Positions 1 through 6,826 of a DNA stretch of 6,826 nucleotides are shown in pieces (position 1 is the stretch's first letter; each line of letters opens with the position of its first letter). A program made the position numbers and the translations under genes. Source of the stretch: Candidatus Rokuibacteriota bacterium (GTDB lineage Bacteria > Methylomirabilota > Methylomirabilia > Rokubacteriales > JACPHL01); assembly GCA_016188625.1 (NCBI GenBank), contig JACPHL010000197.1, positions 1 through 6,826 of the forward strand. Reading direction: 5' to 3'. Under the pieces are notes generated by a model, which saw only the letters and a program-made list of their open reading frames with translations, had not been told where the DNA came from and did not search any database.

Positions 1-926
1 CGGATGATCCCGTGGACGCAGAGCTGGGTGTCCCAGTTCCCCCACCGCTCGCGGATGACGCCCTCGCGGCCGTAGAGGGGGAGGGAGCACTCGAGCTGGC
101 GGCTCACCCCGTGGACCTGGGAGTACTCGAGGAAGGTCCCCTGCCCCGAGACGGTGTCGCGCCAGTAGAGGGCGGACAGGATCTGGAGCGCCCCCATCAT
201 CCCGCCCCAGTAGTCGGCGAGCCAGATGGTGTGCTTCGAGGGGGAGCCGCCGAGCTCCTCCGGGATCCCGGTGATGGCGAAGGCCCCGCCCTGGGCCTGA
301 CCGAGGATGTCGTAGGAGGCCCGGACGCGCCCCGGCCCCCAGCCGCCGAAGCCGCCGAGCCACATGTAGACCAGGCGCGGGTTGATCTTCGAGAGCTGGC
401 GGTAGCCGATCCCCCAGCGGTCGAAGGTTCCGGGCCGGAAGTTCTCCACCACCACGTCCACCTTGGCGGCGAGCTTGTACATCAGCTCCCGGGCCTCGGG
501 GCGATGGAAGTCCATGGAGATGAAGGACTCGTTGAAGTTGGCCCCGAAGAAGCCGAGCCCGGTGCCGGAGCCCGGGACCCACCGGGAGAGCGGGTAGAGG
601 AACCCCTCGTTGCCGGGGGTGGAGTGGCGCATCGGCTCGCCCCGGCGCGGGGCCTCGATCTTGATCACCTCGGCCCCCAGCTCGCCGAGGTAGGAGGCGC
701 AGGAGGGGCCCAGGATGTACTGGGTGCAGGAGAGCACCCGGTAGCCCTTGAGCACCTCGGGCTTCGCGAAGACGGCCGCCGGGGCGAAGGTCTCCCGGCA
801 GTAGCGCTCGAAGTCGGCGTTCCCGGCGCCGTTCCGGCCGGTCGCGGGGCGGCCGGTCGCCTTCCCGCGGGCCGCAGGTCGCGGGCGGGTCCGGGCCTTG
901 GCGGTCGCGCGCTTCCTGGCAGCCAT
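1..926 (-). CDS. Family III (CaiB/BaiF) CoA-transferase, C-terminus off window
   Basis: Probable cytosolic enzyme moving CoA between an acyl-CoA and a free carboxylate through an aspartyl-CoA thioester intermediate (family knowledge). The window holds the first 308 residues; the family usually runs about 400-450, so the C-terminus is beyond base 1. Visible family features are the N-terminal Rossmann-type start (YRVLSCTQYILGP, then LGELGAEVIKIEAP), VDVVVENFRPGTFDRWGIGY, and the catalytic Asp, D238, in IWLADYWGG, followed by VSGQGTFLE. The ATG at 926-924 shares one base with the upstream gene's stop (TGATG) and has an AGGGGGTGA ribosome site about 5 bases before it, so it is probably translationally coupled. 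The first 32 residues are oddly Ala/Arg/Lys-rich (11 basic, none acidic). It is clearly paralogous to the upstream gene. Substrate unknown. Confidence 0.93.
   Translation of the reverse strand, partial: MAARKRATAKARTRPRPAARGKATGRPATGRNGAGNADFERYCRETFAPAAVFAKPEVLKGYRVLSCTQYILGPSCASYLGELGAEVIKIEAPRRGEPMRHSTPGNEGFLYPLSRWVPGSGTGLGFFGANFNESFISMDFHRPEARELMYKLAAKVDVVVENFRPGTFDRWGIGYRQLSKINPRLVYMWLGGFGGWGPGRVRASYDILGQAQGGAFAITGIPEELGGSPSKHTIWLADYWGGMMGALQILSALYWRDTVSGQGTFLEYSQVHGVSRQLECSLPLYGREGVIRERWGNWDTQLCVHGII
391..425. repeat. 35-bp perfect direct repeat, copy 1 (inside CoA-transferase 1)
   Basis: These 35 bases recur without mismatch at 1818-1852 at the matching place in the paralogous gene. 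They encode the FDRWGIGYRQLS segment in both. This reflects gene duplication with strong constraint or local gene conversion, not a mobile element. Confidence 0.85.
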
Positions 927-2347
927 CAGATCACCCCCTGCTTGGCGAGCCGCTCGAGCTCCTCGCGGGTGTAGCCGAGCAGCCGCCGGTAGACCTCCTC
1001 GTTGTCGTAGCCGACCGGGCGGCCGAGCCACTTGAGCCGCGCCGGGGTCTTCTCGGCGAGCATGGGGCTCGTCGCGACCAGGACCGGGCCGTAGAGCCGG
1101 TCCACGAACTCGGCGACCTGCCCCCGGTACTTGAAGTGCGGGTACTCGGCGACCTCGTGGACCGCCTGGACGCCGCCCGAGGCCACCTCCTGGCGGATGA
1201 GCTTCCGCTCCGCCTGGGCGCGGGTGTTCTCCTTCAGCCACTCGCAGAGGAGGGTGTAGGTCTTCACCTGGCGGGTGTGGGGGAGCCGCTCGGAGACGTT
1301 CCGGAGGTTGGGATCGGCGATGATCTCCTCCTCCGCCTCCGGGACCTCGTCGCCCACGGTCCGCCAGATCCGGTACCAGAGCCGGTCGTGGCCGCCGCCG
1401 ACCATCATGTAGCCGTCCTTGCACGGGTTGACGGCGTAGATGTTGATGGCCAGGTCCCAGTTGCCGTAGCGGGGGCGGATGGAGCCGTCCATCCCGTGCC
1501 AGACCCAGTTGTAGTCCAGGATCCGGATGACCCCTTCGGCGGCCGTCGCCTCGATGAACTGCCCCTTTCCCGAGACCTTTTCGCGGTGGAGGAGGGCGGC
1601 CACGATCCCCATGGCCGCGGCGGTCCCGCCGACGTGGTCGGCCATCCACATCCCGGAGCGGGTGGGGCGCCCCCCGAACTCCTTGGGGTCCCCGGTGCCG
1701 TGGACGAAGCCGCACGCCGCCTGGGCGACGGGGTCGCGCATCCCCGGCCTGTCCTTGAGCGGGCCCCACTGCCCCCGCTGGCCGACCCAGCAGTAGACGA
1801 GCCGGGGGTTGATCCGGGAGAGCTGGCGGTAGCCGATCCCCCAGCGGTCGAACCGCCCCGGGGGTCCGTTCTCGATCAGGACATCCACGTGCGGGAGCAG
1901 CCGCTTGAGGACCTCGCGTCCCTTGGGCTTCTCGAGGTTCAGGGTGACGGCGAGCTTGTTGCGCATCTCGTGGAGGAAGTGGAGCCCCACCGGCTCGCCG
2001 CGCTCGGCGTCCTCGACCATGTACGCCTTGCGCCCGAAGGGAGTGAGCCGGCGGAGGGGGTCCCCGCCCGGGGGCTCGAGCTGGATCGCCTCGGCCCCCA
2101 GCTCGGCGAGCTGGGAGGAGCACCAGTGCCCGATGATCATCCCGGTGGTGCAGTCGAGGACGCGGATCCGCCCCAGGGCCTCGGGCTTCTCGAAGGTCTT
2201 CCGGGGGTGGACGATGGATTCGAGGAAGCCGGGGTACTCGCGGGCGGGCTCGGCGAGCCCGCTGTAGACCTCCTCGGGCGTGGGGACGGGGGTGGCGGGC
2301 CAGGGGGGCCGCCCGCGCTTGCCGCCGGTCAGTCGATCGTCAGTCAC
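926..2347 (-). CDS. Family III (CaiB/BaiF) CoA-transferase
   Basis: Complete 473-residue CoA-transferase of the CaiB/BaiF (formyl-CoA transferase-like) family. Motifs in order are IRVLDCTTGMIIGHW, LAELGAEAIQLEPPGGDP, VDVLIENGPPGRFDRWGIGY, the catalytic Asp D237 in MWMADHVGG, VSGKGQFIE, a DGYMMVGGGHDRLW segment, and a typical C-terminus (GYDNEEVYRRLLGYTREELERL...GVI). I chose the GTG at 2347-2345 because a perfect AGGAGGTG Shine-Dalgarno lies just before it. The in-frame ATG at 2362-2360 (five residues longer) has that SD inside its own codons and only a poor site upstream. A longer open frame to 2596 crosses the promoter and is not plausible. It is first gene of the leftward unit and overlaps the next paralogue by one base. 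The pair recalls two-subunit BbsEF (benzylsuccinate CoA-transferase), but the substrate cannot be inferred. Confidence 0.93.
   Translation of the reverse strand: MTDDRLTGGKRGRPPWPATPVPTPEEVYSGLAEPAREYPGFLESIVHPRKTFEKPEALGRIRVLDCTTGMIIGHWCSSQLAELGAEAIQLEPPGGDPLRRLTPFGRKAYMVEDAERGEPVGLHFLHEMRNKLAVTLNLEKPKGREVLKRLLPHVDVLIENGPPGRFDRWGIGYRQLSRINPRLVYCWVGQRGQWGPLKDRPGMRDPVAQAACGFVHGTGDPKEFGGRPTRSGMWMADHVGGTAAAMGIVAALLHREKVSGKGQFIEATAAEGVIRILDYNWVWHGMDGSIRPRYGNWDLAINIYAVNPCKDGYMMVGGGHDRLWYRIWRTVGDEVPEAEEEIIADPNLRNVSERLPHTRQVKTYTLLCEWLKENTRAQAERKLIRQEVASGGVQAVHEVAEYPHFKYRGQVAEFVDRLYGPVLVATSPMLAEKTPARLKWLGRPVGYDNEEVYRRLLGYTREELERLAKQGVI
1818..1852. repeat. 35-bp perfect direct repeat, copy 2 (inside CoA-transferase 2)
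   Basis: Second copy of the repeat at 391-425, in the same orientation and reading frame within the second family III CoA-transferase. Flanking sequence diverges quickly, although the proteins remain alignable. Confidence 0.85.
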
Positions 2348-2579: not shown

Positions 2580-2915
2580 ATGGGGCGCGGCCGCACGCGG
2601 ATGGAGGCACGGCTCGGGGCCCTGGGGACGGGGGGCCGGTCCCTGGTGGTGGGCGAGCGGGTCTACACCCTGGCCGAGCTGCTCGACACCCTGGGGCTCG
2701 GCTTCGAGGGGTGCCGCGCCATCGACGCCCATGCGCTGGGGGAGGGGCAGTTCGCGGTCCGCTACTACGACCCGGAGGAGCAGCGGGTGGTGGCCGTCGA
2801 GTTCGACGCCGGGTTCCGCTACCTCCGGGAGAGCCGCGTGCCCCTGGCTGAGTGGGCTGGCGAGGCGGGGCTCGCCTCCCCGCTGATCGAGGACGGACCG
2901 TGGACCTGGAGCTGA
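2580..2915 (+). CDS. Small hypothetical protein, first gene of the apgM operon
   Basis: A 111-residue protein I do not recognise. It looks genuinely coding: nearly all codons end in G or C, as in its neighbours, and it runs directly into the phosphoglycerate mutase gene, overlapping its start by 16 bases. No signal peptide, membrane segment or cysteine cluster is visible. The middle has a probable helix (YTLAELLDTLGLGF) followed by a likely beta-hairpin (QFAVRYYDPEEQRVVAVEFD), suggesting a small soluble alpha/beta fold. The chosen ATG at 2580 has CGAGGA 7 bases upstream. An ATG at 2601 is the alternative, and a TTG at 2532 would lie inside the predicted promoter. Its position and overlap imply co-translation with the mutase; function unknown. 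Confidence 0.72.
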   Translation: MGRGRTRMEARLGALGTGGRSLVVGERVYTLAELLDTLGLGFEGCRAIDAHALGEGQFAVRYYDPEEQRVVAVEFDAGFRYLRESRVPLAEWAGEAGLASPLIEDGPWTWS

Positions 2916-4102
2916 TCCGGACGCTGGTCGTCCCCAACACGACCAGGATCGTCCTCCTCTCGGCCGACGGGCTCGGGGGGCTCCCGGACCCCGCCACCGG
3001 GCGCTCCGAGCTGGAGACCGCCCGCCTGCCGCACCTCGACGAGCTGGCCGCCCGCTCCGCCTGCGGCCTGATCCGCCACGTCGGGCCGGGGATCACGCCC
3101 GGGAGCGGCCCCGGGCACCTCGGCCTCTTCGGCTACGACCCCCTCCGCTACCAGGTGGGGCGCGGCATCCTGGAGGCCCTCGGGATCGACTTCCCGCTCC
3201 AGCCCGGGGACGTGGCGGCTCGGGGCAACTTCTGCACGGTGGACGGCGAGGGCCGGATCACCGACCGGCGGGCCGGGCGGATCGGGACGGAGCTCTGCGC
3301 GACCCTGGCCCGGCGCCTCCGCGCGATCCGCCTCCCGGGCGTCGAGACCTTCGTCGAGCCGGTCAAGGAGCACCGCTTCGTCCTCGTCCTGCGCGGGTCC
3401 GGCCTCTCGGGCCGTCTCTCCGAGACCGATCCCCAACTCCTGGGCACGCCGCCCCGGCCGGCCGAGCCCCTGGTCCCCGAGGCCGAGCGGACCGCCGGCC
3501 TGATCAACCGCTTCGTCGCGGAGGCCCGGGTCCTCCTGGCCGACGCCGCACCCGCCAACATGCTCCTCCTCCGCGGGTTCGATCAGCTCCCCACCCTGCC
3601 CGCCTTCCCCGAGGCGTTCGGCCTCCGGGCCGCGGCGATCGCGGCCTACCCCATGTACCGGGGGCTGGCGCGGCTGGTGGGGATGGAGGTGCTCAAGACC
3701 GGGGCCGCCTTCGCCGAGGAGGTCCAGACCCTGGCCGCGCACCGGGAGGGGTACGACTTCTTCTTCCTCCACTACAAGGACACCGACACGGCCGGGGAGG
3801 ACGGGGATTTCGCCGGCAAGGTGCGGGCCCTGGAGGCCCTGGACGCCCAGATCCCGGCGATCCTGGCCACCCGGCCCGATGTCCTGGCGGTCACCGGGGA
3901 CCACGCGAGCCCGGCGATCCTCAAGGGGCACAGCTGGCACCCCGTCCCGCTCCTCATCCACGGCCCCTACGCGGCCCCGGATGGGGTCGGGGCGTTCACC
4001 GAGCGGGGCTGCGCGGGCGGCTCCCTCGGGGTCATCCCCTCCCACCACCTGATGCCGCTCCTCCTGGCCAACGCCCTGCGCCTCACCAAGTTCGGCGCCT
4101 GA
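2900..4102 (+). CDS. apgM: 2,3-bisphosphoglycerate-independent phosphoglycerate mutase, archaeal type
   Basis: A 400-residue cytosolic enzyme interconverting 3- and 2-phosphoglycerate in glycolysis/gluconeogenesis without a bisphosphoglycerate cofactor. It belongs to the alkaline phosphatase superfamily. Visible motifs are D23 in LLSADGLGG (metal), S69 in GITPGSGPGHLGLFGYDP (phospho-serine nucleophile), D296 in HYKDTDTAGEDGDF, D334-H335 in VTGDHASP, and H344 in HSWHPVPLLIHGP. Length fits the ApgM family, not the about 510-residue GpmI type. One oddity is E300 at the position where classical iPGMs have a metal-binding His (D-x-x-x-H). I recall similar Glu variants in bacterial ApgM relatives, so this may be a subfamily trait. 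The GTG at 2900 is chosen for GAGG 7 bases upstream; a GTG at 2852 would overlap the previous gene far more. It is followed after 12 bases by the kinase gene. Confidence 0.92.
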   Translation: MDLELIRTLVVPNTTRIVLLSADGLGGLPDPATGRSELETARLPHLDELAARSACGLIRHVGPGITPGSGPGHLGLFGYDPLRYQVGRGILEALGIDFPLQPGDVAARGNFCTVDGEGRITDRRAGRIGTELCATLARRLRAIRLPGVETFVEPVKEHRFVLVLRGSGLSGRLSETDPQLLGTPPRPAEPLVPEAERTAGLINRFVAEARVLLADAAPANMLLLRGFDQLPTLPAFPEAFGLRAAAIAAYPMYRGLARLVGMEVLKTGAAFAEEVQTLAAHREGYDFFFLHYKDTDTAGEDGDFAGKVRALEALDAQIPAILATRPDVLAVTGDHASPAILKGHSWHPVPLLIHGPYAAPDGVGAFTERGCAGGSLGVIPSHHLMPLLLANALRLTKFGA

Positions 4103-4114
4103 GCCCCGGGCCCG

Positions 4115-5599
4115 ATGGGTCTCCGCGGTCGCCTGATCATCGTCCTCCTCATCCCCCTGAGCCTCGTCATGGCCCTCTACGGCTTCCTCCGCGTCCGCCA
4201 GGAGGAGGCCCAGCTCCTCGAGGAGGAGCGGCGGCGGATGGCGGTCACGACCAAGGTGATCCAGATCGCGGTGGAGAACGCCCTCCGCGACCGGCAGATC
4301 TCCGACATCAAACGCCTCCTGGGGGAGCTGGCCGACTTCCAGAACGAGGTGGACCGGATCCGCCTGTTCGACCTCACTTTGACCCCGATCCTCGCCGGGC
4401 GCCCCGCGAGCGCCGAGCCGGAGATCCCGGCGGACGACCTCCGGCGGGTGATCCGGGAGGGGCGGGGGCTGGACTTCTACCAGGAGCGGGACGGCCAGGT
4501 GGTGCTCTCCTACCTCAAGCCCCTCCGGAACCGGGACGGCTCGGTCCGGGGGGTCATCGAGATCGTCCGCCGCGCCGGGGTCGGGACGAAGGTCAGGGCC
4601 GCCCGCGACGAGGTGATCCTCCGGATCGGGCTGGTGAGCCTGGTCCTGGTCCTCCTCATCCTCACGGTCGTCCACCGGAACGTCCTCACCCCGATCCGCC
4701 GCCTGATGGCCGGGGTCCGGGACTTCGCCGCCGGGCACCCGGAGCCGATCCCGGCGCGGGGGCGCGACGAGCTGGCCGAGCTGGCCCGGGCCTTCAACCA
4801 GATGGCCCAGGGGCTCGAGGAGGCCCAGCGGCAGGTCCAGGCCGAGACCGAGGCCAAGCTCGACCTGGCCCGCCAGGTGCGCCAGGCCGAGAAGCTCGCG
4901 GTCGTGGGCCGGCTGGCCTCGGGGCTCGCCCACGAGATCGGCACGCCGCTCAACATCATCTCCGGCCGGGCCGAGTACCTCCTCCAGACCCTCCCGCCCG
5001 ACGACCCCCAGGCCGCCCACCTCCGAACCATCGTGACCCAGATCGACCGGATCAGCGCCATCATCCGCTCGCTCCTCGACGCGGTCAGGCCCCAGAAGCC
5101 GGAGATCCAGGCCACGGACGCGGTCGCGCTCCTCAGGCAGGTCCTCACCCTCGTCGAGCCGATGGCGCGGAAGAAGGGCCTCCGCCTCCGGACGGAGCTC
5201 GACCCCCTCGGCCCGATCCCCGCGGACCCCAACCAGCTCCAGCAGGTGATCATCAACCTGCTCGTGAACGCCATCGAGGCGACGCCCCCCGGCGGGAGCA
5301 TCCTCCTGGCGGCCCGGGAGGCCCCGCGGGACGGCGCCGGGCCGGGGGTGGAGATCCGGGTGGCGGACTCGGGGCCGGGGATCCGCGCCGAGGACCTGCC
5401 CCGGATCTTCGACCCCTTCTTCACCACCAAGCCGCCCGGCCAGGGGACCGGGCTCGGGCTCGCCATCAGCCGCGACATCGCCCGGGAGCACGGCGGGAGC
5501 CTGAGCGTGGAGAGCCGGGAGGGCGAGGGGACCACGATGGTCGTCTGGCTCCCCCGCCCGGCCGAGGAGCCCGCGGCGACGGAGGCAGCCTCCCCGTGA
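4115..5599 (+). CDS. Membrane sensor histidine kinase, NtrB/ZraS-like
   Basis: A 494-residue inner-membrane kinase. It has TM1 at about residues 7-27, an extracytoplasmic sensing region at about 28-165 (mixed alpha/beta, ending in a VLSYLKPLRNRDGSVRGVIE strand pair like PAS/Cache-type folds), TM2 at about 167-186, HAMP at about 188-238, a short coiled coil, then HisKA with phospho-acceptor H273 (GLAHEIGTPLNII). The HATPase_c domain has N-box N385 (LLVNAIEA), G1 D418 (VADSGPGI), F-box IFDPFFTTK, and G2 GQGTGLGLAIS from residue 442. All catalytic motifs are intact. It should autophosphorylate and pass phosphate to the regulator encoded next, whose GTG overlaps this gene's stop (GTGA). The ATG lies 12 bases after apgM with no clear Shine-Dalgarno, suggesting coupled translation. 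The ligand is unknown. Confidence 0.95.
   Translation: MGLRGRLIIVLLIPLSLVMALYGFLRVRQEEAQLLEEERRRMAVTTKVIQIAVENALRDRQISDIKRLLGELADFQNEVDRIRLFDLTLTPILAGRPASAEPEIPADDLRRVIREGRGLDFYQERDGQVVLSYLKPLRNRDGSVRGVIEIVRRAGVGTKVRAARDEVILRIGLVSLVLVLLILTVVHRNVLTPIRRLMAGVRDFAAGHPEPIPARGRDELAELARAFNQMAQGLEEAQRQVQAETEAKLDLARQVRQAEKLAVVGRLASGLAHEIGTPLNIISGRAEYLLQTLPPDDPQAAHLRTIVTQIDRISAIIRSLLDAVRPQKPEIQATDAVALLRQVLTLVEPMARKKGLRLRTELDPLGPIPADPNQLQQVIINLLVNAIEATPPGGSILLAAREAPRDGAGPGVEIRVADSGPGIRAEDLPRIFDPFFTTKPPGQGTGLGLAISRDIAREHGGSLSVESREGEGTTMVVWLPRPAEEPAATEAASP
5581..5598 (+). promoter_or_regulatory. Ribosome site inside a small hairpin at the kinase/regulator junction
   Basis: GGAGG (5581-5585) lies 10 bases before the regulator's GTG at 5596 and is part of a perfect inverted repeat, GGAGGCAGCCTCC (5581-5593). 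The SD could therefore be paired in the mRNA until ribosomes finishing the kinase gene melt it. That would tie regulator output to kinase translation. Confidence 0.4.
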
Positions 5600-6826
5600 C
5601 CGGCCCCGCGAAGGACGCGCTGATCCTGGTCGTGGACAACGACGCCGAGATGGTCGCCCTCCTCGCCGGCCACCTCGAGCGGGAGGGGTATCCGCTCGTC
5701 ACCGCCACCGAGGGGGCCGCCGCGCTCCAGGCCCTCGAGCAGGAGGAGTACGCCGTCGTCCTCACGGACCTCCGGATGGAGGGGGTGGACGGCATGGCCC
5801 TCCTCCGGACGATCCGGGAGCGGACCCCCTTCACCCGGGTCATCCTCATGACCGCCTTCGGGAGCCTCGAGTCGGCGATCGAGGCGATGCGGGAGGGGGC
5901 CTTCGACTACCTCACCAAGCCCTTCAAGCTCCAGGAGGTCTCCCTGGCGGTCCAGCGCGCCCTGGACGACCGGCGCCTGCGGGAGGAGAACCAGCGGCTC
6001 CGCCGCGCGGTGGAGGAGCGGTACGGGCTCGAGGCCCTCCTCGGGCGCTCCGCGGCCATGGAGCAGGTCCGCGAGCTGATCCGGGCCGTGGCGCCCGGCG
6101 AGGCGAACGTCCTCCTGGTGGGGGAGTCGGGGACCGGGAAGGAGCTGGTCGCCCGGGCGATCCACTACGCCAGCCCCCGCGCCCCGGGGCCGTTCGTCCC
6201 GGTCAACTGCGCGGCGATCCCGGAAGGGCTCCTCGAGGCCGAGCTGTTCGGCCACGAGCGGGGCGCCTTCACCGGGGCCGACCGCTCGAGGCCCGGCCTC
6301 CTCGCCGAGGCCCACGTTGGGAGCCTCTTCTTCGACGAGGTCTCCGACATGCCGCTCGCGCTGCAGGCCAAGGTCCTCCGGGCCATCCAGGAGAAGACGG
6401 TCCGGCGGGTCGGCGGGCGCGGGCTGGTCCAGCTCGACTTCCGGATCATCGCCGCGACCAACCGCGACCTCGCCGAGCTGGTCCGCGAGGGGAGGTTCCG
6501 CGAGGACCTCTACTACCGGGACATCCCGCTCCTGGCCGAGCACTTCCTCCGGCGCACCGCGGCCGAGGCCGGGAAGCGGATCGAGGGGTTCGCCGAGGCC
6601 GCCCGGGCCTGGCTCCTCGAGCACCGCTGGCCGGGCAACGTCCGGGAGCTGGAGAACACGATCGAGCGGGCGGTGACGTTGGCGAAGGGGTCCCGGATCA
6701 CGCTGGACGAGATCCGGCCCGTCCAGGTCCCGGACCTCGGGGGCGGCGGCTCGCGCGCGGGGGTAAATGGCGATCGGCCCGCGGCTGGGAAGGCGGCGGG
6801 CGACGGAGGAAACCATGACGCGGCGA
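5596..6826 (+). CDS. Sigma-54-dependent response regulator (NtrC family), 3' end off window
   Basis: Likely partner of the preceding kinase; phosphorylation would trigger AAA+ assembly and sigma-54 promoter opening (family knowledge). 410 residues are visible. The receiver (about 8-125) has D14/D16 with N15 where an acidic residue is common, phospho-acceptor D58, T86 and K108. The AAA+ domain (about 150-360) has Walker A GESGTGKE (176-183), sigma-54 contact loop GAFTGA (223-228), Walker B LFFDEVSD (244-251), sensor I IIAATNRD, and arginine-finger region FREDLYYR (301-308). The next residues are DIPLLAEHF: the roughly 16 residues usually between, including LPPLRER, are missing in frame. WPGNVRELENTIERAV follows. 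After residue 375 comes a Gly/Ala-rich linker; no Fis-type HTH is reached. The GTG overlaps the kinase stop by 4 bases. Confidence 0.92.
   Translation, partial: MTGPAKDALILVVDNDAEMVALLAGHLEREGYPLVTATEGAAALQALEQEEYAVVLTDLRMEGVDGMALLRTIRERTPFTRVILMTAFGSLESAIEAMREGAFDYLTKPFKLQEVSLAVQRALDDRRLREENQRLRRAVEERYGLEALLGRSAAMEQVRELIRAVAPGEANVLLVGESGTGKELVARAIHYASPRAPGPFVPVNCAAIPEGLLEAELFGHERGAFTGADRSRPGLLAEAHVGSLFFDEVSDMPLALQAKVLRAIQEKTVRRVGGRGLVQLDFRIIAATNRDLAELVREGRFREDLYYRDIPLLAEHFLRRTAAEAGKRIEGFAEAARAWLLEHRWPGNVRELENTIERAVTLAKGSRITLDEIRPVQVPDLGGGGSRAGVNGDRPAAGKAAGDGGNHDAA
6805..6817 (+). promoter_or_regulatory. Strong ribosome site and ATG of a possible next gene
   Basis: GGAGGA (6805-6810), four bases and an ATG (6815-6817, reading M-T-R-R to the edge) form a convincing translation start in a different frame from the response regulator, which is still open here. 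It could be the start of a fifth operon gene overlapping the regulator's 3' end, or chance in a G-rich linker. Only four codons are visible. Confidence 0.35.

Follow-up and report, generated by a model that had tools for sequence, protein, structure and literature searches.

An NtrC-type response regulator gene at the end of its contig lacks, as assembled, 48 bp encoding 16 residues of the AAA+ domain. The most likely cause, with a probability of roughly two in three, is that these bases were lost in assembling the MAG contig, the cell itself most likely carrying an ordinary NtrC-type regulator with a complete AAA+ domain. Short pieces adjoining sequence shared with paralogues would have been joined during assembly and the intervening bases dropped. 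Regulators of the NtrC family are phosphorylated, form hexamers and hydrolyse ATP to remodel their polymerase target, and the intact protein would be expected to act in the normal way, from phosphorylation by its kinase through hexamer formation and ATP hydrolysis to remodelling of the sigma-54 RNA polymerase.

The regulator and its 48-bp gap

The window, that is the whole stretch of DNA analysed, is the entire contig C323 (6,826 bp) of a draft genome of 344 contigs, 2.6 Mb in total and 84% complete, the closest named relatives being MAGs of Candidatus Rokuibacteriota. Its features are the following.

3-923, minus strand: family III CoA-transferase gene
929-2340, minus strand: family III CoA-transferase gene
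2852-4102, plus strand: phosphoglycerate-mutase-like metalloenzyme gene, adjoining the two-component system
4115-5599, plus strand: partner histidine kinase with HAMP, HisKA and HATPase_c (Pfam)
5596-6825, plus strand: NtrC-type response regulator gene with a GTG start, last on the contig and open at its end (ORF list, translation, Pfam)
5623-5952, plus strand: receiver domain, residues 10-119 (Pfam PF00072)
6040-6519, plus strand: AAA+ alpha/beta subdomain through the arginine fingers, residues 149-308 (Pfam PF00158, ending at profile position 161/168)
6496-6519, plus strand: arginine-finger block FREDLYYR (translation, NtrC1 alignment)
6519/6520, plus strand: junction at which 48 bp (16 residues, LxVxxIxLPxLRERxE) are missing (translation, alignments, profile matches)
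6520-6720, plus strand: AAA+ lid with sensor II (GNVRELEN), residues 309-375 (Pfam PF25601)
6756-6826, plus strand: terminal 71 bp in which the coding signature is lost, with GGAGG and then ATG at 6815 (third-position GC, frame search)

The regulator presents the receiver, with its phospho-acceptor D58 in an invariant alignment column, Walker A (GESGTGKE), Walker B, the GAFTGA loop, the arginine fingers and the lid with sensor II, all of which mark membership of the NtrC-type sigma-54 activators. Absent from the protein as assembled is the last core strand with its hinge (LxVxxIxLPPLRERxE), which is present in 18 of 18 close relatives. The first-pass annotation had stated that the arginine fingers and GAFTGA remain, and the alignments, which place the fingers at R302 and R308 by comparison with NtrC1, agree.

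Translation across the junction gives ...VREGRFREDLYYRDIPLLAEHFLRR..., in which FREDLYYR runs without a spacer into DIPLLAEHF, as that annotation had read it. Position 6519 ends the codon CGG (R308) and 6520 opens GAC (D309), and the gap is thus in frame and on a codon boundary. The earlier estimate of about 16 residues, or 48 bases, turned out to be exact: in the alignment with NtrC1 (1ny5) precisely 16 residues are absent from the window protein, with no compensating insertion, and across the receiver-AAA+ region the 18 closest relatives have no gap of 4 or more whereas the window protein has a single one, of 16. In relatives the segment at the junction site has the form LAVIPIRLPSLRERxE. 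The alignment with PF00158 that had been proposed as a check cuts the Sigma54_activat match at 161/168, the AAA_lid_14 match starting at residue 308. A relocation of the segment to another part of the protein is ruled out, since the alignments contain no compensating insertion.

An automatic motif-spacing test over all fetched loci returned a spacing of 16 residues in 87 cases and of 0 only in two copies of the window locus; a further 37 cases that the regular expression could not score were inspected as printed and carry the segment too. The segment is present in all 12 remaining uncut activators of this MAG and in all 29 uncut ones retrieved from two related MAGs, and its absence from this contig only, among the activators of the MAG and its relatives, favours an assembly error. 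Among 95 genomes of the class, a degenerate form of the junction pattern occurred in the window genome only, and neither this pattern nor a copy of the window region was found in the IMG/VR viral contigs; a clade-wide variant is thereby ruled out. Chance is excluded as the source of the observed 16-residue gap, and the observation is confirmed.

The best solved match to the window protein is NtrC1 of Aquifex aeolicus (PDB 1ny5 and 4l4u, E around 1e-91), with which it shares the receiver, the linker helix, an AAA+ domain with GAFTGA and arginine fingers, and a lid with sensor II. R308 of the window protein aligns with R299 of NtrC1, an arginine finger (PMC7175178), directly after which NtrC1 carries LGVIEIEIPPLRERKE and the window protein has nothing. 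PspF of Escherichia coli, whose arginine fingers are R162 and R168 (PMC4132715, PMC7175178), shares the AAA+ core with these fingers but has no receiver, and is 17 residues longer than the window protein across the matched AAA+ stretch. Closer at hand, the orthologues of other Rokubacteria (L027-L041 and L056) are 58-69% identical to the window regulator and all have the 16 residues; those complete at the C-terminus also have a Fis-type HTH. In L056, as in the window, the kinase gene lies directly upstream of the regulator.

Consequences for the protein and age of the loss

The 16 missing residues comprise the last core strand and the hinge that leads to the lid, and without them the protein, taken as assembled, is not expected to function as a sigma-54 ATPase. 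In domains of the PspF type the nucleotide lies between the alpha/beta subdomain and the lid (PMC7175178), the two parts that the missing piece connects. Two AlphaFold models built from the same 19 sequences, one of the window protein and one of the intact relative L056, point in the same direction. In this region the L056 control is predicted to form a helix (298-304) and a strand (307-311); the window model lacks the strand, has a helix of three residues and falls to a confidence of 63-74 around the junction, with a moderate overall confidence in both models (pTM of 0.46 and 0.52). The models thus support a loss of function without proving it, and they are consistent with the first-pass view that a core strand and the link to the lid would be gone.

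A real and very recent deletion, giving a loss-of-function allele in the sampled population or in one strain, ranks second and is a tentative explanation. A protein without the last core strand and hinge would be unable to use ATP hydrolysis for the remodelling of sigma-54, and may be inert or a mild hexamer poison. The preserved frame, the clean flanks and the modelled loss of strand and confidence at the junction all fit such a deletion, and the frame also counts against the assembly reading, under which an in-frame gap on a codon boundary would be kept by chance only.

The state of the gene around the gap bears on both explanations. The other 18 sequences share 87 invariant residues, of which the window protein retains 85; its two changes are mild (T243S and L246F), and their number is comparable to that of its peers, whose changes at invariant residues range from 0 to 7. 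The third-position GC is 95-100% in each 20-codon block up to 6735, gap included. With its otherwise textbook AAA+ domain, the protein conforms to the precise in-frame loss described at first pass. Outside the gap, and apart from the tail at the contig end, the sequence of the gene gives no sign of decay. An old pseudogene is ruled out by the intact conserved residues and codon bias, which indicate that the gene is still fully constrained, or was so until very recently, and that the loss is either very recent or not real. The lack of decay speaks for an assembly error, and the lack of further substitutions at conserved sites, beyond the two mild changes, counts against a real deletion.

Two further readings accept the deletion as real and grant the protein a function. 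The first, which we consider very improbable, is a functional hinge-less variant, for instance an ATPase-dead regulator acting through mixed hexamers or as a phosphorylation sink; the retention of the receiver, Walker motifs, GAFTGA, arginine fingers and sensor II is in line with it. Were such a variant of some age, it would be expected to be shared or to show compensating changes, neither of which was found, and the junction is missing from the 94 other genomes of the class and from the IMG/VR contigs. Less probable still is a deletion fixed in the lineage, with a hinge-less or ATPase-dead activator, perhaps without a DNA-binding domain of its own, that would modulate other activators through mixed hexamers. 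The dominant-negative or altered-ATPase function put forward in the first-pass annotation would be permitted by the sequence evidence and gains no support from it. A real deletion in an active protein would challenge the indispensability of the last core strand and hinge in sigma-54 AAA+ domains.

Replication slippage between direct repeats might be thought of as the cause of the 48-bp loss in a region that is very GC-rich. However, no direct repeat was found flanking the junction, and taking the bases of relatives in place of the lost ones gives a microhomology of 0-1 bp, so that slippage appears hardly credible here. Among the causes offered at first pass, slippage is accordingly disfavoured by this lack of a repeat, and the assembly error gains from the further lesions in the same MAG described below. 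The assembly reading has its own difficulty with the junction, which lacks a repeat of the kind that causes a k-mer assembler to skip bases. The exact runs common to paralogues stop at the junction, as they must given the deletion, and this was not counted as evidence.

The contig end and similar lesions elsewhere in the MAG

From the gap to the end of the contig there are 307 bp, the last 71 of which look suspect too, and this is a further point in favour of an assembly error. Third-position GC drops from 99% to 65% in 6756-6826, while it is at least 96% in the remainder of the gene (23-codon windows). Since other genes of the same genome dip locally to 70-78%, this drop is a strong hint, not proof. 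The GGAGG and the ATG at 6815 look like a ribosome-binding site and start codon, and may open another gene. A search of every frame up to the contig end at 6826 revealed no Fis-type HTH, although the close relatives that are complete at their C-terminus have one. Such a C-terminal domain is usual, but not universal, in NtrC-type activators. A search of the other contigs for the C-terminal half returned the ends of other activators, none of them an evident continuation. The gene may run past the contig end or be misassembled; taken together, the low GC, the missing HTH and the GGAGG with ATG make the contig end suspect on a second count. Two other sigma-54 genes of the MAG that are cut by a contig end stay coding to the final base, which weighs against the assembly reading. 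For its part, a real recent deletion could accommodate the seeming loss of the HTH as the mark of a gene at the onset of decay.

An assembly error is favoured because further clean losses occur in conserved multi-copy genes of the same MAG. With a profile of the AAA+/lid region, 2 of 13 uncut activators of this MAG were found to be lesioned, vs 0 of 29 in two control MAGs. The second case, a receiver-AAA+ activator on C41 (L012), resembles the window regulator in that bases are cleanly missing from within its AAA+ region, at locus position ~2136. Unlike the window gap, this loss is of 73 bp, breaks the frame and removes WPGNVRELEN rather than LPPLRER, the correct C-terminus with its HTH resuming in another frame.

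Four ABC genes are affected as well. In an ABC ATPase on C13 (L250, G000:C13:2200-5000), of the kind encoded beside BMP-family substrate-binding proteins, a clean in-frame loss of 25 residues (75 bp), defined by comparison with plasmid records, lies before LSVGEQQR. The lesion in the ABC ATPase gene on C99 (L247, G000:C99:7800-10500), at ~9044-9134, combines a loss of ~180 bp with an exact 40-bp Walker B segment that occurs twice, 50 bp apart, a duplication that, judged from the sequence, would be hard to explain other than by a misjoin. The ABC ATPase on C292 (L244) shows a small loss at Walker A that breaks the frame, and that on C252 (L252) a frameshift, with an apparent extra base in a G run at the signature motif. 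No such lesion was seen in any ABC match uncut by a contig end in the control MAG G037; each of its 94 matches is complete, truncated by a contig end or from a subfamily that is shorter by nature.

Clean losses that recur in a fragmented MAG, at sizes from 48 to ~180 bp and in one case with a duplication, make an assembly error the most likely explanation. A lineage rich in young pseudogenes would cover these other lesions under a real deletion too, but the misjoin on C99 with its 40-bp duplication points toward assembly. Pooled, the lesions amount to 6 of 69 in this MAG vs 0 of 122 in the controls (Fisher p ~0.002), a figure that is indicative only, as the count includes the window case that prompted the survey and inflates the contrast, the two sets were screened in not exactly the same way, and the contrast is weak by family (p of 0.09 for sigma-54 activators and 0.02 for ABC genes). 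The practical value of these findings is a warning: the losses in this MAG are clean, of read-length scale and located in conserved multi-copy genes, and its apparent motif losses and pseudogenes should be checked against the reads before they are interpreted.

Neighbouring genes

The conserved motifs of the histidine kinase (4115-5599) were checked and no unusual gap was found in them; its stop overlaps the start of the regulator at 5596. The gene adjoining the kinase, phosphoglycerate-mutase-like in the window, is not the same in L056. The two CoA-transferase genes (3-923 and 929-2340) are further neighbours. Sigma-54 is encoded in the same genome, with a PF04552 match on C106.
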